A stretch of DNA of 64,000 nucleotides from Stenotrophomonas sp. 364. GTDB lineage: Bacteria; Pseudomonadota; Gammaproteobacteria; Xanthomonadales; Xanthomonadaceae. Positions 2,911 to 63,671 of the stretch are shown here, in pieces. The translations under genes and the position numbers were made by a program. The stretch is from contig NZ_CP047135.1 of assembly GCF_009832905.1 (NCBI RefSeq), forward strand, positions 1,218,001-1,282,000. Reading direction: 5' to 3'. Positions within the stretch are counted from its first letter, which is position 1; each line of letters begins with the position of its first letter. The notes below the pieces were generated by a model that ran no database searches, was not told where the DNA came from, and saw only the letters and a program-made list of their open reading frames with translations.

Positions 2911-3029
2911 AGGGCCGCCCTGCCGGTGCGGCCACACCAAAACGGTGGGTACCGACCGTTACCCGGTGGGTGCCGACCGTTGGTAGGTACGCCTCAACCG
3001 GACCCCGCACCCCGATTCGGAGCGCGCCA

Positions 3030-3488
3030 ATGCCCGACCTCCCCGAATACAGCGGCGGCTGCCAGTGCGGCGCCATCCGCTTCCACGTCCGCGGCGAACT
3101 CACCGACAGTTCGATCTGCCATTGCCGGATGTGCCAGAAAGCCTTCGGTGCCTATTACGCACCGCTGGTGTCGGTGCGCACCGTCGAGTTCACCTGGACC
3201 CGGGGCGAGCCGCGCCGATTTGCCTCTTCCAACCTGGTCCAGCGGGGTTTCTGCCCCGACTGCGGCACGCCGCTGACCTACGAAGCGCCGAACGGGATGG
3301 CCGTTGCCGCCGGGGCCTTTGACGAACCTGCGCGCCTGCCGCCGACCGTGCAGTACGGCACCGAAGCCAAGCTGCCGTTCGTGGATACGTTGGGGTCGCT
3401 GCGCGTTATCCGCGACGAGGATGACCCCGAGATGGCGCTGCTGCAGGGCCTGGTCAGCCACCAGCACCCCGACCACGACACCCCCTGA
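3030..3488 (+). CDS. GFA/CENP-V family zinc protein
   Basis: This 152-residue protein belongs to the glutathione-dependent formaldehyde-activating (GFA) fold family. Members bind structural zinc and a catalytic or thiol-associated zinc. Seven cysteines form the expected pattern: C11/C13 (CQCG), C30/C32/C35 (CHCRMC) and C75/C78 (CPDC). ATG 3030 starts exactly at the domain. The same frame extends upstream through the end of rnr, but only as a shadow. Most members of this family have no proven substrate, so formaldehyde activation should not be assumed. No operon partner is obvious, as rlmB follows after 105 bp. Confidence 0.9.
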   Translation: MPDLPEYSGGCQCGAIRFHVRGELTDSSICHCRMCQKAFGAYYAPLVSVRTVEFTWTRGEPRRFASSNLVQRGFCPDCGTPLTYEAPNGMAVAAGAFDEPARLPPTVQYGTEAKLPFVDTLGSLRVIRDEDDPEMALLQGLVSHQHPDHDTP

Positions 3489-3593
3489 CGCCGCCGCGCC
3501 GCAGGGTCGGGCCCCCGTCGTGAACGCCCGGCGGGGCAGGCGGGGCCTTGATGCTCTACCATTACCACCCCCTGTACCGGTCGTGCCCCCGCA

Positions 3594-4340
3594 ATGAGCA
3601 AGCAAAGCCAGTGGATCGTCGGCGTCAACGCTGTCGCCTCTTCGATCGAGAACGATGCCGAGAACGTCCGCGAGGTGCTGATCGAAGCCAGCGCGAAGAA
3701 TCCGCGGCTGGTGGAAATCGAAGAGAACGCGCGCCGCAAGGGCATCGACGTGCGCAAGGTCAACACCCAGGCGCTCGATGGCGTGGGCGGCTCGGTACGC
3801 CACCAGGGCGTGGCCGCGCGCTACCAGGCGGCACGCACCTACGGTGAGAACGAACTGGAAGGCCTGGTCGAGGCCGCCGAGGGCAAGGCCCTGCTGCTGA
3901 TCCTCGACGAGGTGCAGGACCCGCACAACCTCGGCGCCTGCCTGCGCAGCGCGGCGGCCGCCGGTGCCACCGCAGTGATCATTCCCAAGGACAAGTCGGC
4001 CACGGTCAACGCCACCGTGCGCAAGACCTCGGCCGGTGCGGCCGACCGCATCCCGGTGGTGGCGGTGACCAACCTGTCGCGCTGCCTGAAGGACCTGCAG
4101 AAGCTGGGGGTGTGGATCTACGGCCTGGCCGGTGAAGCCACCGCGTCGCTGTACTCGATCGACCTGAAGGGCAACGTGGCGCTGGTGCTGGGCGGCGAAG
4201 CCGACGGCCTGCGCCGCCTGACCCGTGAAAACTGCGATGGCCTGGTCAAGATTCCGATGCCGGGCGATATCGAGAGCCTGAACGTCTCCGTCGCCACCGG
4301 CGTGAGCCTGTTCGAGGCCGTCCGCCAGCGCGGCCTGTAA
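3594..4340 (+). CDS. rlmB: 23S rRNA (guanosine-2'-O)-methyltransferase RlmB
   Basis: This 248-residue SPOUT/TrmH-family methyltransferase is predicted to methylate the 2'-O of G2251 in 23S rRNA. The N-terminal substrate-binding domain (to about residue 85) starts WIVGVNAV. The catalytic domain has the knot motifs DPHNLGACLRSA, LGGEADGLRRL and IPMPGDIESLNVSVA, in the usual order. RlmB normally lies next to rnr, as it does here, with only the GFA gene between them. Length matches the family (about 243-250). The start ATG is 105 bases after the preceding stop. Confidence 0.95.
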   Translation: MSKQSQWIVGVNAVASSIENDAENVREVLIEASAKNPRLVEIEENARRKGIDVRKVNTQALDGVGGSVRHQGVAARYQAARTYGENELEGLVEAAEGKALLLILDEVQDPHNLGACLRSAAAAGATAVIIPKDKSATVNATVRKTSAGAADRIPVVAVTNLSRCLKDLQKLGVWIYGLAGEATASLYSIDLKGNVALVLGGEADGLRRLTRENCDGLVKIPMPGDIESLNVSVATGVSLFEAVRQRGL

Positions 4341-4353
4341 CCCGCCCGCGCGC

Positions 4354-4806
4354 GGCGCCGAACGGCAGCCGACCAACGGTCGGCTCTACCCGGCGGGGGT
4401 TGCCGCGTGGTGCTGCATCGTCGCGATCCCGGAATGGGTAGAGCCGACCGTTGGTCGGCTAGCTTGCCAAGCGTGGTGCCGGAGGGCAGCCGACCAACGG
4501 TCGGCTCTACGCGGTGGGGTCACCGCGTGCTGCTGTGTCGTCGCAATCCCAGAATGGGTAGAGCCGACCGTTGGTCGGCTAGCGCGCGGCGCGCGGTGCC
4601 TGAGGGCAGCCGATCAACGGTCGGCTCTACGCGGTGGGGTCACCGCGTGCTGCTGTGTCATCGCGATCCCGGAATGGGTAGAGCCGACCGTTGGTCGGCT
4701 AGCGTGCGACGCGCGCTGCTTGAGGGCAGCCGACCAACGGTCGGCTCTACACGGTGGGGTACCCGCGTGCTGCTGCGTCGTCGCGATCCCTGAATGGGTG
4801 GACCCG
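4354..4806. repeat. Tandem 120-bp array of GTAG (SMAG-type) REP palindromes
   Basis: About 3.6 copies of a unit repeat head to tail, with period exactly 120 bp from 4501 on and 121 bp for the first copy. Each unit carries two palindromes in opposite orientation: GTAGAGCCGACCGTTGGTCG and its complement ending GGTCGGCTCTAC. They are separated by a conserved spacer that includes GGGTCACCGCGTGCTGCTG and GATCCCGGAATGG. The GTAG head is the signature of the SMAG family of S. maltophilia. The array fills the gap between rlmB and the convergent efflux operon. An open frame through it (4407-4793) is only repeat sequence. Confidence 0.9.
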
Positions 4807-14900: not shown

Positions 14901-14954
14901 CGCGCGCTGTACCGCGCCAAGAGCGAAGGCCGCGACCGCACCGCCATCGGGTAG
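11931..14954 (+). CDS. Two-component-propeller (Reg_prop/Y_Y_Y) diguanylate cyclase
   Basis: This 1007-residue protein has an N-terminal signal sequence (about residues 18-40, ending PLAAQ). Two seven-bladed propellers follow, built of Reg_prop repeats with recurring LWxGT-like segments (LWLGTENQGL, LWVGTFGDGV, LWIGTIEGI). Next come a Y_Y_Y domain, one membrane helix near residues 775-800, a coiled coil, and a GGDEF domain with active motif GGEEF at 925-929. An intact inhibitory site R916-D-S-D919 is five residues upstream. It is probably an active, feedback-inhibited c-di-GMP synthase sensing a periplasmic ligand. It lies 147 bp after the kinase and may be separately transcribed. Confidence 0.9.
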   Translation: MSQGGRGSRWRPVQLNVIRRLGAALLWLCLCGVLSWPLAAQDGPPPLRDYAIDVWTSRNGLPHNSLRDIAQTPEGHLWFATWEGLVRYNGLDFTVFDRSTRPGLRDNGVGALLVDRSGALWISDSRGNVTRRGSDGRWQVYEHQAGTPQVLIQAMQMDSHGRLWLLYEGQGIGSLVPDGGIQYQPHPPEVPMAMSFTKLVVDAQDRVWVGTLDGLVVRDTDGVLRRAPDSFGLGRGLVWPYRGPDGVMWIVASERIYRMQDGVPQLQHRLPGVMHITAMLQDRHGDLWLGTENQGLLRLSRHGLERLPTGLSLPGGRVVSLREDAEGSIWVGANGGLYRLRETLFSSFTERDGLSGDYIRTVLEDQRRQVWIGSASGLDRRDAQGRFSPVTLRNSGGKTPSVLSLAQGHDGDLWVGTFGDGVFRLDAQGRTLRNYGTADGLPGGNIRAISVDRAGVVWAGTQKGVVRIDGHGVEVPRVPGMPGGLITALAHDAEGALWIGTIEGIRVLRGNRVQSIDLAPLGGGRSVFGFQQVGDAMWVSSDRGLYRWQDGRLARVGLEQGMPVDTVFQLVPDRIGNVWISSNRGVLRTDMAMLNDVADGRTARIEVEHYNEIDGMANSQANGSSGPSAILRQDGTFWVVTAGGLSTVDPLRLQRFRERLAPPAVIESVQVDGKPLHWQGANHNSIPGGRRLSVSYVGLSYLMSERIRYRTRLTGLDKGWIERGQQRSVEFIGLPPGDYTLHVSAAHPGGSWSDSEAVWDFTVEPFLWQRRSVQAVAALLLLGGLIALYLYLIHRYKASNVRLAQKVDEATRDLQAQTVNLQALNQEKTELADRLAVQAEQFGRQAREDALTGLPNRRAFDEALARDFARSQRSGHPLCLVVLDIDHFKEVNDQHSHSVGDVVLVEVARVIASACRDSDMPARTGGEEFTLLLNDTRLAEAAQVCARLRGLFHDHPDWAGVPGLKVTFSAGLVELDAADRTPMLLYQRADRALYRAKSEGRDRTAIG

Positions 14955-15069
14955 AGCCGACCGTTGGTCAACCGCACGCACGCCACACCGCGTGCGGCCG
15001 ACCAACGGTCGGCGCTACCTTCGGGGGGTGTCGGGTGCGGAAACGCAGCCGACCAACGGTCGGCTATAC
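14951..15069. repeat. Three SMAG-type palindromes
   Basis: A GTAGAGCCGACCGTTGGTC half (14951-14969) overlaps the stop of the propeller cyclase gene. Complete copies in inverse orientation lie at 14997-15018 (ending GGTCGGCGCTAC) and 15048-15069 (ending GGTCGGCTATAC). They fill the gap between two convergent genes. Confidence 0.85.
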
Positions 15070-15080
15070 GGTTCCGGGGG

Positions 15081-17060: not shown

Positions 17061-17925
17061 GGTCGGCTCCGGCGTGCGCGGCCATCAGCTGGCGGATGGT
17101 GCGCAGTTCGTCGCGCAGTTCGGGGTAGGGCGGGAAGTTGAAGTCGCGTTCGAGCAGGGTGGGGCGTGCACCGATGCGCGCGTAGGTGCGGGCCAGCAGG
17201 TCCCAGACCGGGTCGATCACGGCGCTGCCGTGGGTGTCGATTTTCAGGTCCTCGGCCTCGTCCAGGTGGCCGGCCACGTGCAGGCAGACGATGCGCTGGG
17301 CGGGCACTCCGGCGATGAATGCGTCGGCGTCGTAGCCGTGGTTGCAGGCGTTGACGTAGACGTTGTTGACGTCGAGCAGCAGGTCGCAATCGGCTTCGGC
17401 GAGCACGGCGTTGGTGAAGGCCAGTTCGTCCATGGCCGGTTCGGGGGCGAGGTAGTAGGAGACGTTTTCCACCGCGATGCGCCGGCCCAGGAGATCCTGT
17501 ACGCGGGCGATGCGTGCGGCGGTGTGGTGCACGGCTTCGTCGGTGAAGGGGATGGGCAGCAGGTCGTAGAGGTGGCCATCGTCGCTGCAGTAGCTGAGGT
17601 GTTCGCTGTAGAGCGGTACCCGGTGCTGGTCGAGGAAGCGGCCGACCTGTTCAAGCAGGTGGGTATCCAGTGGCGCGGTGCTGCCCAGCGACAGGGACAG
17701 GCCGTGGCAGCTGAGCGGGTAGCGTTGGGCGAGGTCGGCCAGGGCGTCGGCGGCGGGGCCGCCCACGCCGATCCAGTTTTCCGGCGCGCATTCGAGGAAG
17801 TCGAGGTCGCCGGCCGGGGCATCGCGCAGGGTCTGCAGCAGTGCGCGGCGCAGGCCCAGTCCGGTCGCCGCCGCAGGCAGCGGCGACCGGTGGCTGCCCG
17901 GGGCGATGGGGTCAGTGCTTGGCAC
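17053..17925 (-). CDS. bufB: DUF692 multinuclear iron oxidase (MNIO; BufB/HvfB-like)
   Basis: DUF692 enzymes (MbnB family) are TIM-barrel oxidases with two or three irons that convert peptide cysteines into heterocycles or thioamides. The 290 residues contain family landmarks [67 protein letters not shown] and ERDFNFPP, which supply the conserved His/Glu/Asp/Asn ligands. The frame extends upstream through the bufA repeats out of frame with that gene, so GTG 17925, overlapping the bufA stop by 14 bp with GAAGG nearby, is chosen. It presumably modifies the EGKCG cysteines of BufA. Confidence 0.9.
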
Positions 17926-18289
17926 CGCACTTGCCTTCGCCGCACTTGCCTTCGGCGGTCTTCTTGTCGCCGGCGGTCTTGGTTTTGGCGTCGGTGGCCT
18001 TGCCTTTGTCGGCGCCGCACTTGCCTTCGCCACACTTGCCTTCTGCGGTCTTTGCACCGGTTGCGGTGGCCGTTTTGCCAGCGGCCTGGGTGCCGGCCTT
18101 GTCGCCGTGGGCGCCACACTTGCCTTCACCGCACTTGCCTTCGGCGGCCTTGGTCGCGGCCTGTCCTGCAACGAGGTAGCCCTGGGCCAGGTCGGTAATG
18201 CTCAAGGCAGACGCCGACGCGGTGACGCCGAGGCCGGCGGCGAGCGCGGTGGCAGCCAGCAGGGACAGCGAACGGGTGGGGTTGCTCAT
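17912..18289 (-). CDS. bufA: Cysteine-motif RiPP precursor (BufA/HvfA-like, DUF2282 type)
   Basis: This 125-residue exported peptide has a Sec signal (residues 1 to about 29, ending ASASA). Its mature part has six EGKCG motifs arranged as three [10 protein letters not shown] doublets, separated by lysine/threonine/alanine-rich linkers and ending GAKH. All six cysteines are in these motifs. In bufferins and oxazolins, MNIO enzymes modify the EGKCG cysteine and the product binds copper. AAGGAG lies 9 bases before ATG 18289; the upstream extension of the frame is not needed. The DNA of the three doublets is nearly identical, suggesting recent internal duplication. No metal-responsive operator was recognised upstream. 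Confidence 0.9.
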
Positions 18290-18509
18290 CGGGTGGTGCT
18301 CCTTGGTATGGGCCGGGGCCCGGGATGGCTGCGTGGGGGCAGCAGGTGCGGCCATGGTGGGCCGGCCCGGCTCAACGAATCCTCACACAGGATTCAATGT
18401 TTCGTGAAGTGTGGGGTGGGTGTTTTTCTTTTTTGAAGCGAAAAGCCAGAGCTGGAGCAACAGCAACTGCAACAGCAACAGCCGAGGGTGCGGGCGTGCC
18501 TGGCTTGGC

Positions 18510-18819
18510 GGGTACGGGTGGGTTGGCGGGACACGCCGCAAGTACGTCCGTGTAGGCTCGTGAGCGCCATCCATGGCGCCCAACGGTCCCGCCAACCCAC
18601 CCGTACCCACCTATGACAGTGAGTCGGGTGGCCACGAAGGAGCAGAGCACTTAGTCCGTGCCGTTGTAGCTTTGCGGTGCTTCGCCTTGCCATGGCTGCC
18701 AGTCAAGTGTCGAGGGTGGGGGTGTGTGGGTTCGCGGGACCCTGAGCCGCATGGATGCGGCGACGGAGCCTACAAGGACGTACTTGCGGCGTGTCCTGCG
18801 AACCCACACAGCTCCACCC
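18510..18819. repeat. Composite hairpin element, copy 1
   Basis: Two long hairpins lie in opposite orientation. The first (18510-18608) has 23-bp perfect arms containing GTGGGTTGGCGGGAC around an inner palindrome GGCGCCATCCATGGCGCC-like segment. The second (about 18714-18819) has arms with GTGGGTTCGCGGGAC and one core mismatch, around GCCGCATGGATGCGGC. Both inner parts share GAGCCTACA and GTACTTGCGGCGT. A (GCAACA)n stretch (18459-18480) precedes it. The whole gap 18290-18886 between bufA and the phoU terminator holds this element and flanks but no convincing gene. The motif is distinct from the SMAG palindromes. Confidence 0.85.
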
Positions 18820-18886
18820 AGCTCAGGTCAAGCAGAAGACTGCAGCTGTTGAGCTCCATCTTTGGCAGTTACGGAGACCCGAAACG

Positions 18887-18940: not shown

Positions 18941-19648
18941 TCAGACGTGATCGGTGCTGCTGGTTTCGTCGCGCTTTTCGCGCGGCGGAAGGACCTGCTC
19001 GCCGTGTACCAGGAACCAGACGTTCTCGGCGATGTTGGTGGCGTGGTCGCCCACCCGTTCCAGGTTCTTGGCCATGAACAACAGGTGCGTGCACGGGGTG
19101 ATGTTGCGCGGGTCTTCCATCATGTACGTCAGCAGCTCGCGGAACAGCGCCGTGTACTGCGCGTCCAGCCGTGCGTCGTCGTCGCGCAGGGCCAGCGCGG
19201 CGGCCGCATCGTTGTCGCGGTAGGCCTCGATCGCGCGGCGTACCTGCTGGGCTGCCAGCCGGCCCAGCGAACGCAGGCCCTGGATCTGCGGCAGCGGCGG
19301 TACCTTGCTCAGGGCGATGGAACGCTTGGCCACGTTCGCGGCGTAATCGCCGATGCGCTCGATATCGGCCGGAATGCGCAGGCCCGCCAGGATCTCGCGC
19401 AGGTCGCGTGCCATCGGCCCGCGCAGTGCAAGACGCATCACGTCGTGGCTGATCTGCTGCTCCAGCCCGTCGATCGCCTCGTCGTTGGCGATGATGCGCT
19501 GGGCAGCGTTTTCGTCGCGCTTCTCGATCACGTCCATCGACGCCTCGAGCTGGGCGACCGCCATCTCGCCCATGCGCACGATCTCGGCCACCAGCCGCTG
19601 CTGCTCTTCGTCGTAGCTCTTGACGATATGGTCGTTGGGAATGCTCAT
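18941..19648 (-). CDS. phoU: Phosphate transport regulator PhoU
   Basis: PhoU links the PstSCAB transporter to the PhoR/PhoB two-component system and represses the Pho response when phosphate is plentiful. The 235 residues form the usual two three-helix bundles, each with a metal-binding signature: LRIPADIERIGDYAANVAKR in the first and LFMAKNLERVGDHATNIAE in the second. ATG 19648 is chosen because the upstream extension would need a TTG start. It follows pstB by 31 bp in the same transcript. Confidence 0.96.
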   Translation of the reverse strand: MSIPNDHIVKSYDEEQQRLVAEIVRMGEMAVAQLEASMDVIEKRDENAAQRIIANDEAIDGLEQQISHDVMRLALRGPMARDLREILAGLRIPADIERIGDYAANVAKRSIALSKVPPLPQIQGLRSLGRLAAQQVRRAIEAYRDNDAAAALALRDDDARLDAQYTALFRELLTYMMEDPRNITPCTHLLFMAKNLERVGDHATNIAENVWFLVHGEQVLPPREKRDETSSTDHV

Positions 19649-19679
19649 GCGGGTGTAGTCCAAAGGTTCGTGGCCGGGA

Positions 19680-22506: not shown

Positions 22507-23598
22507 TCACTTGAACTCGGCCGTCCAGTAGGCCTCGATCTGGGTCACCAGCTCGGCCGGCAGCGGCACGTAATGCAGTTCGTTGGCCTGCTTCTGGCCG
22601 TTCTCGAAGGCCCACTTGAAGAACGCCAGGGTTTCCTTGCTGCGCTTGGCATCCTTGGGCTGCTTGTGCATCAGCATGAAGTTGGTGGCGGTGATCGGCC
22701 ACGCCTGGTCGCCCGGGGCGTTGGTGATGACCAGGTTGAAGTCCTTGGCGCTGGCCCAGTCGGCGCTGGCAGCGGCCGCGGCGAAGGTTTCGGCGCTCGG
22801 CTGCACCCAGTTGCCGGCGGCGTTCTGCATCGAGGCATACGGCATCCCGTTCTGCAGCGCGTAGGCCAGTTCGACGTAGCCGATGGAGCCCTTGATCTGC
22901 TTCACGTACGAGGCGACGCCTTCGTTGCCCTTGCCACCCACGCCATCGGGCCACTGCACCGAGGTGCCTTCGCCGACCTTGCTCTTCCAGTCCGGGCTGA
23001 CCTTGGACAGGTAGTTGGAGAAGTTGAAGGTGGTGCCCGAGCCGTCGGAGCGGTGGACGAGGGTGATCTTGCCGTCGGGCAGCTTGACGCCCGGGTTGGC
23101 GGCAACGATGGCCGGGTCGTTCCAGGTCTTGACCTTGCCGAGGAAGATGTCGGCCAGCAGCGCGCCGCTGAGGCGCAGCTTGCCGGCGTCGAGGCCGTCG
23201 ATGTTGACCACCGGCACCACGCCGCCGATCGCCGACGGGAACTGGCCGAGTCCGGCCTGGGCCAGTTCTTCGCTGCTCAGCGGCTTGTCGGAGGAACCGA
23301 AGTCGACGGTACCGGCCTTGATCTGCGCGATGCCGCCGCCGGAGCCGATCGACTGGTAGTTGATTTTGGCGCCGGTGGCGGTGTTGTAGTCGGCCGACCA
23401 CTTGGACACCAGCGGGAAGATGAAGGATGCGCCGGCACCGGAAATTTCAGCGGTCAGGCGGTCGCCGGCCGCCGGTGCAGCGGCGGGAGCGTCGGCAGCC
23501 GGCGCAGCGGCCTGGCCTTCGGCGCCCGGCTTGCAGGCGGAAAGACCCAGCGCGATGGCCAGGGAAAGGGCGGTCAAGCCAGCCGTGTGCAGTTTCAT
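22507..23598 (-). CDS. pstS: Phosphate-binding protein PstS, predicted lipoprotein form
   Basis: PstS delivers phosphate to PstCA. The 363-residue protein has a lipoprotein signal (LSAC, acylated C22) and an alanine/proline-rich linker to about residue 45. The phosphate-binding fold follows with ISGAGASFIFP, GSGGGIAQI, HRSDGSGTTFNF and ATNFMLM. It therefore should be membrane-anchored, unlike its neighbour at 24429. Its own Pho box lies 66-83 bases upstream. The two PstS proteins are closely similar through the mature part, implying duplication. Confidence 0.95.
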   Translation of the reverse strand: MKLHTAGLTALSLAIALGLSACKPGAEGQAAAPAADAPAAAPAAGDRLTAEISGAGASFIFPLVSKWSADYNTATGAKINYQSIGSGGGIAQIKAGTVDFGSSDKPLSSEELAQAGLGQFPSAIGGVVPVVNIDGLDAGKLRLSGALLADIFLGKVKTWNDPAIVAANPGVKLPDGKITLVHRSDGSGTTFNFSNYLSKVSPDWKSKVGEGTSVQWPDGVGGKGNEGVASYVKQIKGSIGYVELAYALQNGMPYASMQNAAGNWVQPSAETFAAAAASADWASAKDFNLVITNAPGDQAWPITATNFMLMHKQPKDAKRSKETLAFFKWAFENGQKQANELHYVPLPAELVTQIEAYWTAEFK

Positions 23599-23681: not shown

Positions 23682-23778
23682 TGTGACCGGCGGCACGTGG
23701 AGGCCTTGTGGGGCTTGGGTTCTGGTCGAATTCTCAAGGGGAAAGCGTGAAGCCTGGCGGGCAACCTGCGCCCGGGCT

Positions 23779-24243
23779 GGGCGGGGAGGAGTGGGTTCGC
23801 GGGACACGCCGTGAACCCATCCATGGGGGCTCGTGTACGGCATCCATGCCGTACACGGTCCCGCGAACCCACTCCTCCCCGCCCCTGACAGTTGGCCGGA
23901 GGCCGTGGATAAGCCAAAGGAAAGACCCTCAACCTCCGACCTCCATCTCAGAATCCCAGCAACCAGATCCCAGACGTCAGGCCAGGGCAACCCAAATCCA
24001 ACCGCACTCCCGCTTCATTGCGCAGACGCTTTCGCTGACGGGCCAGGAAACTGTCGGGGGCTGGTGGGGGTGGGTAGCCGGGGCCCTCCATCGCATGGAT
24101 GCGATGGCGGAGCTTACAAGGGTGAGGGCGCATTGCTTGCGAGGCACTGCCTCGCATGCGTCCGAACGCACAGCCGCCGGCGGCTGGGCCGGGCCGCGGA
24201 GCGGGACTTGCAGCGTGCCCCGGCTACCCACCCCCACCAGCCC
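23779..24243. repeat. Composite hairpin element, copy 2
   Basis: The first hairpin (23779-23884) has 27-bp perfect arms containing GAGTGGGTTCGCGGGAC around an inner palindrome GTGTACGGCATCCATGCCG and its partner. The second (24058-24243) has 27-bp perfect arms (containing GGGGGTGGGTAGCCGGGGC) in opposite orientation. It encloses a longer insert with the inner stem CCATCGCATGGATGCGATGG, GGAGCTTACA, and further stems (GCGAGGCA/TGCCTCGC; AGCCGCCGGCGGCT). The element and its flanks fill 23682-24340 between the two pstS genes. No gene is supported there. Confidence 0.85.
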
Positions 24244-24428: not shown

Positions 24429-25448
24429 TCAGTACTTCAGGTTCTGCGACCAGTAGGTCTCGATCTGCTTCACCAGCGTGTCCGGCAGCGGCACATAGTC
24501 CAGCTGCTTGGCCTGCGCATCGCCGCTCTTGTAGATCCAGCGGAAGAACTCCTGGGTCGCCTTCGCGCTGGCCACGTTCTTCGGCTGCTTGCGCACCAGA
24601 ATGAAGTTGGTCGCCGTGATCGGCCAGGCGTCCGCGCCCGGCGCGTTGGTCATCACCAGGTAGAAGTCCTTCGAGCTGGCCCAGTCGGCGCTGGCAGCAG
24701 CCGCGGCGAACGACGTGTCGCTCGGCAGCACCACCTTGCCCGACGCGTTCTTCATCGCCGCGTAGGACATCTTGTTCTGCAGCGCGTACGACAGCTCCAC
24801 ATAGCCGATGCCGCCCTTGATCTGCTTCACGTACGCAGCAACGCCTTCATTGCCCTTGCCGCCGATGCCCACCGGCCACTGCACCGAGGTGCCTTCGCCG
24901 ACCTTGCTCTTCCACTCCGGGTTGACCTTGGACAGGTAGTTGACGAAGTTGAAGGTGGTGCCCGAACCATCCGAGCGGTGCACGACCGTGATCTTGCCGT
25001 CGGACAGCTTCACGCCCGGGTTCAGGGCCGCAATGGTCGGGTCGTTCCAGGTCTTGATCTTGCCCAGGAAGATGTTGGCCAGCGTCGGGCCATCCAGCTT
25101 CAGCGCACCCGGCGCGATGCCGGCCACGTTGATCACCGGCACCACGCCGCCGATCACCGACGGGAACTGGGCCAGGCCGGCCGCGGCCAGTTCTTCCGGC
25201 TTCAGCGGGGCATCGGACGAACCGAAATCGACCGTCGCCGCCTTGATCTGGGCGATACCGCCACCCGAACCGATCGACTGGTAATTGACCTTCTTGCCGG
25301 TCGCGGTGTTGTAGTCGGCCGACCACTTGGACATGACCGGGTAGATGAACGAGGCGCCCGCGCCGGTCACATCGGCGGCATTGGCGGCGAACACGGACGA
25401 CGCGGCGAGGACGGCAACGGCGGCGCGCGACTTGAAGGCGTGGATCAC
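24429..25448 (-). CDS. pstS: Phosphate-binding protein PstS, soluble periplasmic form
   Basis: The 339 residues start with a signal peptidase I-type leader (ending FAANA) and no lipobox. The phosphate-binding fold follows (GAGASFIYPVMSKW, GSGGGIAQI, HRSDGSGTTFNF, DAWPITATNFIL). It is closely related to the lipoprotein paralogue at 22507 but lacks its linker. Translation starts at GTG 25448 with AGGAG 8 bases upstream. It has its own Pho box and terminator. The likely division of labour is a soluble scavenger alongside an anchored one. Confidence 0.95.
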   Translation of the reverse strand: MIHAFKSRAAVAVLAASSVFAANAADVTGAGASFIYPVMSKWSADYNTATGKKVNYQSIGSGGGIAQIKAATVDFGSSDAPLKPEELAAAGLAQFPSVIGGVVPVINVAGIAPGALKLDGPTLANIFLGKIKTWNDPTIAALNPGVKLSDGKITVVHRSDGSGTTFNFVNYLSKVNPEWKSKVGEGTSVQWPVGIGGKGNEGVAAYVKQIKGGIGYVELSYALQNKMSYAAMKNASGKVVLPSDTSFAAAAASADWASSKDFYLVMTNAPGADAWPITATNFILVRKQPKNVASAKATQEFFRWIYKSGDAQAKQLDYVPLPDTLVKQIETYWSQNLKY

Positions 25449-36760: not shown

Positions 36761-36971
36761 GATTGCCGGGCAGCGCCCGGCACTACCCGCTCGCCGTTCG
36801 CGGGGTGACCCTTGCCGGGCAGAGCCCGGCACTACCCGCCCGCCGGTCGCCGGATGACCCGGTAGAGCCGACCGTTGGTCGGCTGCCTTTCGTTCGGGCA
36901 TCGCGATAGCCGACCAACGGTCGGCTCTACCCGTTCGGGCATCGCGATAGCCGACCAACGGTCGGCGCTAC
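36761..36971. repeat. Cluster of five SMAG-type palindromes, two subfamilies
   Basis: Two GCCGGGC-type elements (about 36761-36786 and 36812-36835) are followed by three GCCGACC-type elements (about 36862-36887, 36907-36930, 36948-36971). The third is in opposite orientation to the rest. The last two are separated by a duplicated spacer (CCGTTCGGGCATCGCGATAG). They fill the gap between the convergent GNAT and DUF3325 genes. Confidence 0.85.
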
Positions 36972-36987
36972 CCTGTTCGGCCGCCCG

Positions 36988-61282: not shown

Positions 61283-62190
61283 ACGCCGCCGTCTGGAAGC
61301 GCTGGCTCCCCGGCACCCGCGGTGGTGTGATCGCCGCGCCCTACCTGTGGCTGCTGCTGTTCTTCGCGGTGCCGTTCGTGATCATCCTGATGATCTCGTT
61401 CGCGCGCACGCAGGTGGGCTCGCCGCCCTACACATGGCTGCTGGAATACGTGGACGGGGCGTTTTCGCTGAAGCTCAACCTGGGCAACTACGCGGCGCTG
61501 GTGAAGGACAGCCAGTACGTGCTGGCCTACCTGAGTTCGATCAAGATCGCGGTGATCGCCACGCTGTTCACGCTGCTGATAGGCTACCCGATGGCCTACG
61601 TGATTTCGCGGATGTCACCGGCCGCGCGCAACGTGGCGATGATGCTGGTGGTGCTGCCGTCGTGGACCTCGTTCCTGATCCGCGTGTACGCGTGGATCGG
61701 CATCCTGGACCGCAACGGGCTGCTGAACCAGCTGCTGCTCAAGCTTGGCGTGATCGATGCGCCGCTGCAGATCCTGTACACGCCGACCGCCGCCTACATC
61801 GGCATCGTCTACTGCTACCTGCCGTTCATGGTGCTGCCGCTGTACGCGAACCTGGTCAAACTGGACAACCGGCTGCTGGAGGCGGCCTACGACCTGGGCG
61901 CCCGGCCGTGGCAGGCGTTCCTGCGGATCACCCTGCCGTTGTCGCGCACCGGCATCATCGCCGGCTGCATGCTGGTGATGATCCCGGCGGTGGGCGAGTT
62001 CGTGATTCCCGAGATGCTGGGCGGTCCGGACACGCTGATGATCGGGCGGGTGCTGTGGGGCGAGTTCTTCAACAACCGCGACTGGCCAACGGCCTCGGCG
62101 GTGGCGATCGTGATGCTGCTGTTGCTGCTGGTGCCGATCCTGCTGTTCAACCGTGTCCAGCAGCGTGAGCTGGAAGGAAAGCTGGCATGA
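61279..62190 (+). CDS. potH: Polyamine ABC transporter permease PotH
   Basis: The 303-residue inner-membrane permease has about six helices (YLWLLLFFAVPFVIILMISFA first) and the coupling loop LLEAAYDLGARPWQAFLRITLPLS. It is the first of the two permeases of PotFGHI. ATG 61279 overlaps the potG stop by 4 bp and its own stop overlaps potI by 4 bp, indicating coupled translation. Confidence 0.95.
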   Translation: MNAAVWKRWLPGTRGGVIAAPYLWLLLFFAVPFVIILMISFARTQVGSPPYTWLLEYVDGAFSLKLNLGNYAALVKDSQYVLAYLSSIKIAVIATLFTLLIGYPMAYVISRMSPAARNVAMMLVVLPSWTSFLIRVYAWIGILDRNGLLNQLLLKLGVIDAPLQILYTPTAAYIGIVYCYLPFMVLPLYANLVKLDNRLLEAAYDLGARPWQAFLRITLPLSRTGIIAGCMLVMIPAVGEFVIPEMLGGPDTLMIGRVLWGEFFNNRDWPTASAVAIVMLLLLLVPILLFNRVQQRELEGKLA

Positions 62191-63032
62191 GCATGGTGCG
62201 CGGCAACCGCTGGCTGGGCTGGTCGGTGCTGGGGCTGGGCTTCGGCTTCCTGTACCTGCCGATCCTGCTGTTGATGATCTACTCCTTCAACGAATCCAAG
62301 CTGGCCACGGTGTGGTCGGGCTTTTCCACGCGCTGGTATGGGGAGCTGTTCAACAACCGGCAGATTCTGGATGCGCTGTGGATCAGCCTGAAGGTGGCGT
62401 TCTGGACGGCCTGTGCGTCCACGGTGCTGGGCACGATGGCGGCGATGGTGATGACGCGCTTCAAGCGTTTCCCGGGCAAGACGATGTTCGGTGCGCTGAT
62501 CACCGCGCCGCTGGTGATGCCGGAAGTGATCCTGGGCTTCTCGCTGATGACGCTGCTGGTGGCGATGGGCGGGATTCCCGGTTTTCCGGCACGCGGGGTA
62601 ACCAGCATCTGGATCGCGCATGTAACGTTCACGCTGTCGTTCGTGACGGTGGTGGTGTCGTCGCGGCTGCAGGAGCTGGACCGGTCGCTGGAGGAGGCGG
62701 CGATGGATCTGGGGGCGGGGCGGTTGAAGGTGTTTCTGCAGATCACGCTGCCGATCATCGCGCCGGCGCTGGTGGCCGGCTGGCTGTTGGCGTTTACGCT
62801 GTCGCTGGACGATGTGGTGATCGCCAGTTTCGTGGCGGGTCCGAGTTCGACGACGCTGCCGATGAAGGTGTTCGCGTCGGTGCGGATGGGGATCAAGCCG
62901 GAGATCAATGCATTGGCGACGCTGATGGTGCTGGCGGTGTCGCTCGCGGCGGTGGTGGGGTGGTTCGTGACGGCCCGCGGCGAGAAGCGCCGCCAGCGCG
63001 ACATGCAGATGGCGTTGCAGGACAAGGGTTGA
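62187..63032 (+). CDS. potI: Polyamine ABC transporter permease PotI
   Basis: The 281-residue second permease has six predicted helices and the coupling loop SLEEAAMDLGAGRLKVFLQITLPI. It is the last gene of the potFGHI transcript; the following 600 bp hold the third composite hairpin element before the next gene. Start ATG 62187 overlaps potH. Confidence 0.95.
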   Translation: MSMVRGNRWLGWSVLGLGFGFLYLPILLLMIYSFNESKLATVWSGFSTRWYGELFNNRQILDALWISLKVAFWTACASTVLGTMAAMVMTRFKRFPGKTMFGALITAPLVMPEVILGFSLMTLLVAMGGIPGFPARGVTSIWIAHVTFTLSFVTVVVSSRLQELDRSLEEAAMDLGAGRLKVFLQITLPIIAPALVAGWLLAFTLSLDDVVIASFVAGPSSTTLPMKVFASVRMGIKPEINALATLMVLAVSLAAVVGWFVTARGEKRRQRDMQMALQDKG

Positions 63033-63076
63033 GGCAACGGCAACAGCAACAGCAACAGAGGGGCAGGGTCTGGGGT

Positions 63077-63527
63077 GGCGTCGGCGTGGGTGGGTTGGCG
63101 GGACACGCCGCAAGTACATCCCTGTAGCTCGTGGGCGCCATCCATGGCGCCCAACGGTCCCGCCAACCCACCCACGCCGACGCCCGGCAGGTTGTTTGCC
63201 CTTTTGTTGAAGGCGCAGGGCAACGGCGCATGGCAGTTGCCGCGTTGCACCGCGTAGAGCCGGGCTCTGCCCGGCTGCTCTTCTCAATCAAAGCGGTCGG
63301 CCGGCTCTTGCTCTTGGTTCGGCAACCGACACACTGTCCAGGCATGGTGAGGGTGGGTTGACGGGGCCCTGAGCCGCATGGATGCGGCGACGGAGCTTAC
63401 ATGGGTGAAGGCGCATTGTTTGCGAGGCACTGCCTCGCATGCGACTGAACGCACAGCCGCCAGCGGCTGGGCTGGGCCGCGGAGCGGGACTTGCAGCGTG
63501 CCCCCGGCAACTCACCCTCACCGTGCC
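63077..63527. repeat. Composite hairpin element, copy 3, with a SMAG palindrome in its spacer
   Basis: The first hairpin (63077-63184) has 28-bp perfect arms (GTGGGTGGGTTGGCGGGAC and an outer GC-rich part) around the inner palindrome GGCGCCATCCATGGCGCC. The second (63341-63527) has imperfect arms in opposite orientation with inner GCCGCATGGATGCGGC, GGAGCTTACA and the same extra stems as copy 2. A (GCAACA)n tract (63033-63056) precedes it, as in copy 1. A GTAG-headed palindrome (63254-63278) lies in the spacer. The gap 63033-63671 holds no supported gene. Confidence 0.85.
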
Positions 63528-63671
63528 CGCCCGGAAGAAGCGACTGCTAACGCTTCGGCTCCAACCTGCGACGCCATGTCGCAACCCAACCCCCGGCTCC
63601 CCGCCAACCCCGGCAACATCCGGATCACACCCCCGGGCGCAGAATGATGCACTGTCTTCCGGAGTACCACG

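Follow-up and report, generated by a model that had tools for sequence, protein, structure and literature searches.

A long-stemmed, TwoAYGGAY-related hairpin as a high-copy intergenic repeat in Stenotrophomonas, with a plausible link to CsrA/RsmA

Introduction

The window, a stretch of 64,000 nucleotides from the genome of Stenotrophomonas sp. 364, contains three places at which two long hairpins lie close together in opposite orientations. The question raised by these places is what kind of element they represent: a mobile DNA element, a site at the ends of transcripts, a by-product of replication or a structured RNA. A sequence-only reading of the same DNA had described them as an undescribed-looking composite element that is neither random nor a single terminator, and had suggested a non-autonomous mobile element or a structured DNA/RNA site.

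Results and Discussion

Hairpin pairs in the window

All three sites are present, and by sequence and by covariance model each is a minus/plus pair of long hairpins (Table 1). The model, R1, has 125 positions and 39 pairs and was built from A1, an alignment of 27 copies from the same genome; a BLAST search of this genome with one hairpin gave 55 matches. R1 places five of the six hairpins of the window and the sixth in part. The sixth is the right-hand hairpin of pair 2, which is matched only at 24044-24168 with 28.7 bits and whose orthologue in the genome G458 is a short form. In pair 3 the segment 63077-63187 has a folding energy of -90.8 kcal/mol, which lies at z -11.1 relative to 200 dinucleotide-shuffled sequences; for the fold of the segment 63340-63530, z is -5.1. 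The gene names phoU, pstS-like, potI-like and gabD-like were assigned by reading translations.

Table 1. Hairpin pairs in the window, their parts and their neighbouring genes
Feature	Position in window	Strand	Basis
Pair 1 setting: small gene on one side, phoU on the other	17912-18355; 18941-19663	-; -	ORFs
Pair 1 left, short hairpin	18501..18626	- (GGA-presenting strand minus)	R1, 126.9 bits
Pair 1 spacer; conserved 5' flanks of both hairpins point inward	18627..18699		
Pair 1 right, short hairpin	18700..18824	+	R1, 136.3 bits
Pair 1 right, P2 loop CATGGATG, hexaloop AUGGAU	18750..18757	+	sequence
Pair 1 right, P3 UACAAGGACGUA, similar to CsrA SELEX consensus RUACARGGAUGU	18771..18782	+	sequence; PMC7652899 (excerpts)
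Pair 2 setting: flanked by two pstS-like genes	22507-23598; 24429-25448	-; -	ORFs
Pair 2 left, short hairpin	23774..23898	-	R1, 129.1 bits
Pair 2 right, long-form hairpin, larger domain in place of P3	~24044..24243	+	sequence
Pair 3 setting: potI-like and gabD-like genes	62187-63032; from 63672	+; +	ORFs
Pair 3 left, short hairpin	63073..63197	-	R1, 117.0 bits
Pair 3 left, P3 UACAGGGAUGUA	63115..63126	-	sequence
Pair 3 left, P2 loop CATGGATG	63139..63146	-	sequence
Pair 3 right, long-form hairpin	63327..63532	+	R1, 91.5 bits

The motifs that the sequence-only reading had listed as common to the hairpins hold to different degrees. Counted by eye, the inner-stem core CATGGATG is found in all six, and TGTC stands directly outside the G-rich arm in five of the six, just as it had said. 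The arm core GTGGGTT(G/C)GCGGGAC is exact in four hairpins, while the two long right-hand hairpins read GTGGGTAGCCGGGGC and GTGGGTTGACGGGGC. GGAGC(C/T)TACA is exact in the three plus copies only, the minus copies having GAGCCTACA, GAGCCCCCA and GAGCTACA. The GTAG head of SMAG elements is indeed absent from the hairpins, which have the consensus foot CTGTC. Dense arrays of SMAG/GTAG palindromes, including a 120-bp tandem unit, are present at 4348-4760, 14944-15080 and 36861-36980 of the window.

Anatomy and covariation

The outer stem P1 comprises 27 model pairs; its sequence is free and its pairing is kept. It encloses two apical hairpins, P2 and P3, whose loops expose GGA. CATGGATG is invariant across A1, and the P2 hexaloop is AUGGAU in 93 of the 95 copies scored in this genome. 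P3 consists of a three-pair tip, a GGA hexaloop and a 5-nt 3' bulge, and is present as CANGGANG in 73 of 100 copies here; the canonical P3 GGA loop is missing in 27, among them 21 long-form matches and another two long forms that R1 truncates. The P3 loops of this genome include ACGGAC (15 copies) and AUGGAU (10 copies), both of the AYGGAY type, and many of the others are ARGGAY. P3 is found in 54 of 55 hairpins from other genomes, most commonly as UACAGGGAUGUA (12) and UACAGGGACGUA (10). The distance from GGA to GGA is 20 nt in 71 of 73 copies here and in 47 of 53 from other genomes. An expanded P2 with extra AGGA and AGGAUU loops is seen in two hairpins of this genome (L085 and L086) and in one of G458 (L304:12569-12773).

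In A1, 96.9% of cells pair and 27 of the 39 pairs show changes on both sides, which none of 500 shuffles equalled. The alignment A4 draws on 44 loci of other genomes and has 59 rows, four of them antisense readings; 96.8% of its cells pair and 38 of the 39 pairs show both-side changes, pairing figures that are flattered because A4 was fitted to the model. All four Watson-Crick types occur at most stem positions of A4. At two loci from different families (L075 and L177) a further inverted repeat, GTTCCGAAT.../...ATTCGGAAC, encloses the hairpin by eye.

Copies in the genome and their gene context

The covariance search of the genome that the sequence-only reading had proposed is positive. R1, run on stretches of this genome around R1 matches and on the window, gave 175 matches; collapsing opposite-strand readings of one hairpin to the better match left 100 among the best 150, and four hairpins with weak matches (in L085, L086, L116 and at 24060-24235 of the window) were included manually. 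The 4.84 Mb genome holds at least 104 hairpins at 67 sites, a recurrence beyond chance, as had been claimed from the window. R1 copy numbers here and below are lower bounds, since the best 150, 113, 88, 23 or 12 candidates were scored per genome.

Pairs make up 37 of the 67 sites; a lone hairpin is found at the others, plus-oriented at 17 and minus-oriented at 13. Every one of the 37 close pairs is ordered minus then plus, with spacers of 54-367 nt. About 20-30 nt of 5' flank (GCACCGGCCAACTGTC type) are conserved in the copies of this genome and the 3' flank is not, and in paired hairpins the conserved flanks face one another. Partners within a pair resemble each other no more than random hairpins do (0.606 versus 0.615 in 18 short-form pairs), and an origin of the pairs by local duplication was rejected for this reason. 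In several pairs the spacers have short stretches in common, which read as SMAG units.

None of the 67 sites overlaps a gene predicted by our home-made codon-model gene finder. The flanking genes are co-directional at 43 sites, convergent at 16 and divergent at eight, compared with 89, 27 and 35 when every gap of 100 bp or more in these stretches is counted, element sites included, and 59 of the 67 sites lie downstream of at least one gene. Such positions would suit hairpins at operon ends that act as intrinsic terminators or stabilise mRNA in a generic way, an explanation that we regard as very improbable. A five-T run within about 30 nt on the 3' side is found in none of 104 hairpins of this genome and none of 55 from other genomes, and intrinsic terminators were rejected for the missing U-tract; many copies lie beyond a terminator-like hairpin, and the conserved loops would be left unexplained. 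A terminator-like hairpin precedes the element at 33 of 75 facing gene ends, with 21 of 118 at other gene ends, where other window lengths were used. The element seems to sit beyond the terminators at gene ends of this genome, and many copies may therefore fall outside the mRNAs of their neighbours.

Single copies between co-directional genes are sense in eight cases and antisense in 12, so there is no sense bias. Sigma70-like promoters, scored against a promoter table, are not enriched upstream of the hairpins, either in this genome (means of 1.24 sense, 1.27 antisense and 1.24 shuffled) or in other genomes (3.79, 4.22 and 4.21, respectively). Independent sRNA genes with sigma70 promoters were rejected for lack of this enrichment.

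Strand asymmetry and exposure of GGA

The stems contain wobbles that favour one strand. On the GGA strand, 77 hairpins of this genome have 56 G-U and 10 A-C wobbles, and 53 hairpins from other genomes have 45 and 4; these are counts in which events are non-independent, as copies share ancestry. Hairpins with more G-U than A-C outnumber the reverse by 38 to 5 here (34 ties) and by 23 to 1 elsewhere (29 ties). The set consists of hairpins in which both GGA loops were detected, namely 77 of the 150 rows of alignment A3 and 53 of the 59 rows of A4; the A3 rows outside it are mostly long forms or readings of the antisense strand. The wobbles occur in both orders (17 + 39 here, 17 + 28 elsewhere), so that a C-to-T bias on one arm is insufficient as an explanation. 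A strict SMAG control shows no asymmetry, with a per-hairpin sign of 3:5, which is a small number. A looser SMAG control (504 matches, 123:95) was contaminated by chance matches and was dropped, the strict set being used instead.

Since the wobbles favour the GGA strand, this strand appears to matter in single-stranded form. G-U is a true pair in RNA, and RNA is therefore a likelier single-stranded form than ssDNA. When folded, 100 of 104 hairpins expose at least one GGA in the sense orientation, as against 4 of 104 in antisense and 18 of 130 control intergenic stretches; under a strict accessibility cut only 41 of the 104 have two or more open GGAs.

Perfect stems might also be maintained by quasi-palindrome dynamics, in which template-switch correction at replication keeps the arms complementary and neither selection nor function is involved. 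The unconstrained stem sequence, with all four Watson-Crick types at most A4 positions, is in keeping with this, as are module swaps between orthologues that look like conversion (see below). Template correction does not predict a wobble asymmetry on one strand, however, and the GGA loops and their spacing are conserved over the class sample. This loop conservation argues against quasi-palindrome dynamics as the whole story, and we consider the explanation improbable.

Relation to TwoAYGGAY and other named families

The nearest named family is Rfam TwoAYGGAY (RF01731), which belongs to clan CL00106, the clan of CsrB (RF00018). TwoAYGGAY dates from 2010, and a 2014 paper still gives its function as a predicted CsrA role. 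Excerpts of PMC2864571 give its occurrence as human gut, gamma-Proteobacteria and Clostridiales and rate it 'RNA: probably; cis-regulatory: probably not'. According to excerpts of PMC4333381, its external stem is poorly conserved, it contains two strong matches to the CsrA-binding motif and it is predicted to bind CsrA, with validation then in progress.

The copies described here fall below the RF01731 gathering score of 43 bits: there is no match in 18690-18835 (E<=10), in the window (E<=1) or in this genome (E<=0.001). For the hairpin at L072 the sub-threshold match was to TwoAYGGAY, with 35.3 bits. An Rfam scan of the window gave nothing over threshold on the hairpins, and the microRNA and Ysr224 matches that it gave below threshold appear to reflect a long stem in general. 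Among 15 genomes tried, TwoAYGGAY is over threshold in G359 (11 matches) and G226 (one match), and the G359 copies that reach threshold, with up to 55 bits, are R1 copies too. R1 matches coincide in place and strand with 11 of the 12 RF01731 loci examined (of 17 matches), the exception being L139. Because the RF01731 threshold is missed but R1 coincides with its loci, we file the element as a related variant of TwoAYGGAY and not as a member.

The two share an outer stem around two hairpins with GGA-bearing loops. For the AYGGAY loops of TwoAYGGAY, P2 here has AUGGAU (93/95), and P3 has AYGGAY in some copies, ARGGAY in many and no canonical loop in 27/100. Differences from TwoAYGGAY, whose copy numbers were surveyed in 15 genomes, are the 5-nt 3' bulge of P3, the approximately 100 copies in this genome and the close minus-plus pairs. 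A literature search of open-access papers, at the level of listings, brought up no recognised report of a high-copy form. SMAG/GTAG REPs are likewise intergenic palindromic repeats of this genome, but the element is without the GTAG tag and has a far longer stem, and the strict SMAG set is without the wobble asymmetry.

The description 'undescribed-looking' is thus partly wrong, as a related named family exists, although the copies here are below its threshold. The sequence-only reading had held that a match to a named family would speak against it, which partly applies because TwoAYGGAY is a related family. Its interpretation of a recurrent, structured and paired element that is not SMAG and possibly a structured RNA site is partly supported.

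Distribution across genomes

At E<=0.001, and with this genome included, R1 matches 23 of 31 Stenotrophomonas genomes, 39 of 149 genomes of the family (16 of 54 genera) and 45 of 274 genomes of the class (40 of 221 genera). The carriers in the class sample span 38 families by a hand count of labels, and in 40 of these carriers the copies range from one to at least 87, the best 88 candidates having been scored. By hand count among the matches listed for other genomes, seven of eight pairs within 600 bp are minus-plus. In G412 (L066, region 2995-3616) a minus-plus pair (3230-3351 and 3463-3587) is found just past a 6S RNA gene at 2995-3178.

Exact-pattern searches of viral contigs gave one match in one search and none in another. 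Nucleotide searches, which are weak for a repeat with free stems, gave none in plasmid records (two hairpins as queries) or phage records (one hairpin); carriage by phages or plasmids was set aside, almost nothing having been found by these weak searches. The element is real, widespread and structured, and the strongest results are those on its structure, its strand asymmetry and its breadth.

Spread and stability

A serious rival, although we think it somewhat unlikely, is a non-autonomous DNA transposable element of MITE or REPIN-like kind. The hairpins would be its ends, an HUH or other transposase would read them as ssDNA, the loops would be the recognised motif and CsrA would be irrelevant. 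This would account for the minus-plus order of all 37 close pairs here and of seven of eight pairs within 600 bp among the matches listed elsewhere, and for the conservation of about 20-30 nt of 5' flank, on the inner side, but not of the 3' flank; recognition of ssDNA also predicts strand-biased wobbles. It is less easily reconciled with the likeness between partners, which does not exceed that between random hairpins (0.606 versus 0.615), or with the near absence of the element from viral contigs and its absence from plasmids and phages in the weak searches above.

Mobilisation by Y1 transposases, suggested by the TIRYT elements in excerpts of PMC3733652, was examined at 83 Y1-transposase (PF01797) loci. 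These are all the matches in the 31 Stenotrophomonas genomes, with about 1.5 kb on each side, some cut by contig ends. R1 gave no match at 31 loci and, in the other 52, three matches of 22-24 bits at two loci (L321 and L349). With nothing above 24 bits near the 83 genes, and no convincing neighbouring hairpin, Y1/TIRYT mobilisation was rejected, which also weighs against the mobile element. A crude pattern finds two or more GGGGTCAGA-type TIRs in nine of the 83 loci, four or more SMAG-like units in 24 and neither in 52. Both Y1 genes of this genome adjoin GTAG repeats, and one (L031:900-2740) lies inside a long array of SMAG-bearing units.

The TIRYT of S. maltophilia K279a resemble the element as self-complementary repeats close together in the same species group (PMC3733652, excerpts). 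A self-complementary 41-bp repeat of the GGGGTCAGATCCC..GGGATCTGACCCC type flanks the Y1 gene in L034, L037 and L038 and is unrelated to the element; it fits the GGGGWSAS motif of the same excerpts and is linked to ORF 1152 by description only. Inverted repeats are also found at like positions around the Y1 genes of L036, L042 and L044.

The search for empty sites in relatives, also proposed from the window, found that occupancy differs between species at the phoU and potI loci, which favours a mobile element. Downstream of phoU, R1 has a match in none of 80 loci of relatives (two of them, L208 and L232, have less than 120 nt there). In L181, whose PhoU is 97% identical, 117 nt of other sequence separate the phoU terminator from the upstream region of the next gene, compared with 475 nt containing the pair here. 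At potI, hairpins are present at three of 30 loci (this genome, G458 and G462), 16 of the 30 having been seen as sequence; the potI of G458 is 96% identical. By eye, the potI locus L268 retains a remnant resembling an arm. Another long hairpin, unlike the element and with the tip GGCAAAGTAAAGGAGG...GGGGGACATTTGCC, lies about 150-320 nt downstream of phoU in L180 (JAHREJ010000007.1). This record is titled Bacillus subtilis SK7B5 and encodes a PhoU 99% identical to the Stenotrophomonas PhoU described here; the assembly is probably mislabelled or contaminated.

Over 400 kb of G458, which is a close relative, every R1 match is at a site that is occupied here too, which counts against a mobile element. 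Nine of ten comparable sites of this genome are occupied there, and the site of L091 keeps only a 26.5-bit match. When six pair sites were aligned with their G458 counterparts, none had an inverted spacer, and inverted pair units were rejected on these six sites. P3 has been exchanged, or long and short forms switched, at three places (pair 1 left, pair 2 right and L097 left), where P1 is nearly unchanged; the left hairpin of pair 2, by contrast, differs in P1 as well as in P2, and by eye the right-hand stem at potI also differs in G458. This exchange of modules between orthologues, as read from the aligned sequences, suggests that copies undergo conversion or template switching with one another.

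A possible role in CsrA/RsmA regulation

On balance we favour a reading of the element as a TwoAYGGAY-type hairpin with a long stem, present as a high-copy intergenic repeat, that would be transcribed and whose two GGA loops would be bridged by one CsrA/RsmA dimer. Such bridging would make each short-form copy a dual CsrA site, and collectively the copies would form a distributed sink for CsrA/RsmA or would label the transcripts in which they lie. A CsrA role is plausible from the form of the sites. In excerpts of PMC7652899 the CsrA SELEX consensus is RUACARGGAUGU, with loops mostly of six nucleotides, and CsrA bridges sites 10-63 nt apart with an optimum above 18. P3 (UACARGGAYGUA type) resembles this consensus, and the short forms agree with the same description of CsrA sites, having GGA in hairpin loops and two sites within 10-63 nt. 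The stems of SELEX ligands usually have at most four pairs, whereas the P2 stem here is longer, and the long forms are without a second canonical CsrA-type site.

Several GGA motifs exposed in loops are also a feature of CsrB/CsrC, RsmX/Y/Z and RsmU. As far as the cited excerpts describe them, those are individual sRNAs, whereas here one or two canonical predicted sites per hairpin are dispersed over the chromosome. According to excerpts of PMC7694677, no homologue of CsrB or RsmX/Y/Z was found in Xanthomonas, and the 3'UTR-derived RsmU binds RsmA; its binding in vitro persists after all predicted GGAs are replaced, so that the GGA motif is not a complete guide.

A csrA match is present in 235 of the 274 class-sample genomes, in 41 of 45 R1-positive and 194 of 229 R1-negative ones. 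As csrA is near-universal in this sample, its co-occurrence with the element is non-discriminating. No CsrA match passes the cut-off in four R1-positive genomes, although hits with E values up to 10 were listed: G369 (98% complete, nine copies), G243 (88%, 37 copies), G183 (75%) and G274 (67%). These four carriers without detectable csrA, together with the long forms, the lack of sense bias and the lack of a promoter signal, count against the CsrA step.

Conclusions

Going one step further, we suggest tentatively that the element, with about a hundred GGA-loop hairpins per genome in head-to-head pairs, could be a class-wide, chromosomally dispersed CsrA/RsmA sponge that sets the level of free CsrA where bacteria lack CsrB-type RNAs. 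Alternatively, it could be a selfish repeat whose spread exploited CsrA. With a family of about 100 copies, a strand-specific constraint and closely spaced GGA loops, the prediction that TwoAYGGAY binds CsrA becomes directly testable. The element bears on the titration of RsmA in the Lysobacteraceae, as excerpts of PMC7694677 report that Xanthomonas showed no CsrB-type RNA. A sponge or a CsrA-exploiting repeat, if true, would connect global post-transcriptional control with bacterial repeats, and would give a possible function to a family of bacterial intergenic repeats, a class often seen as selfish or structural DNA.
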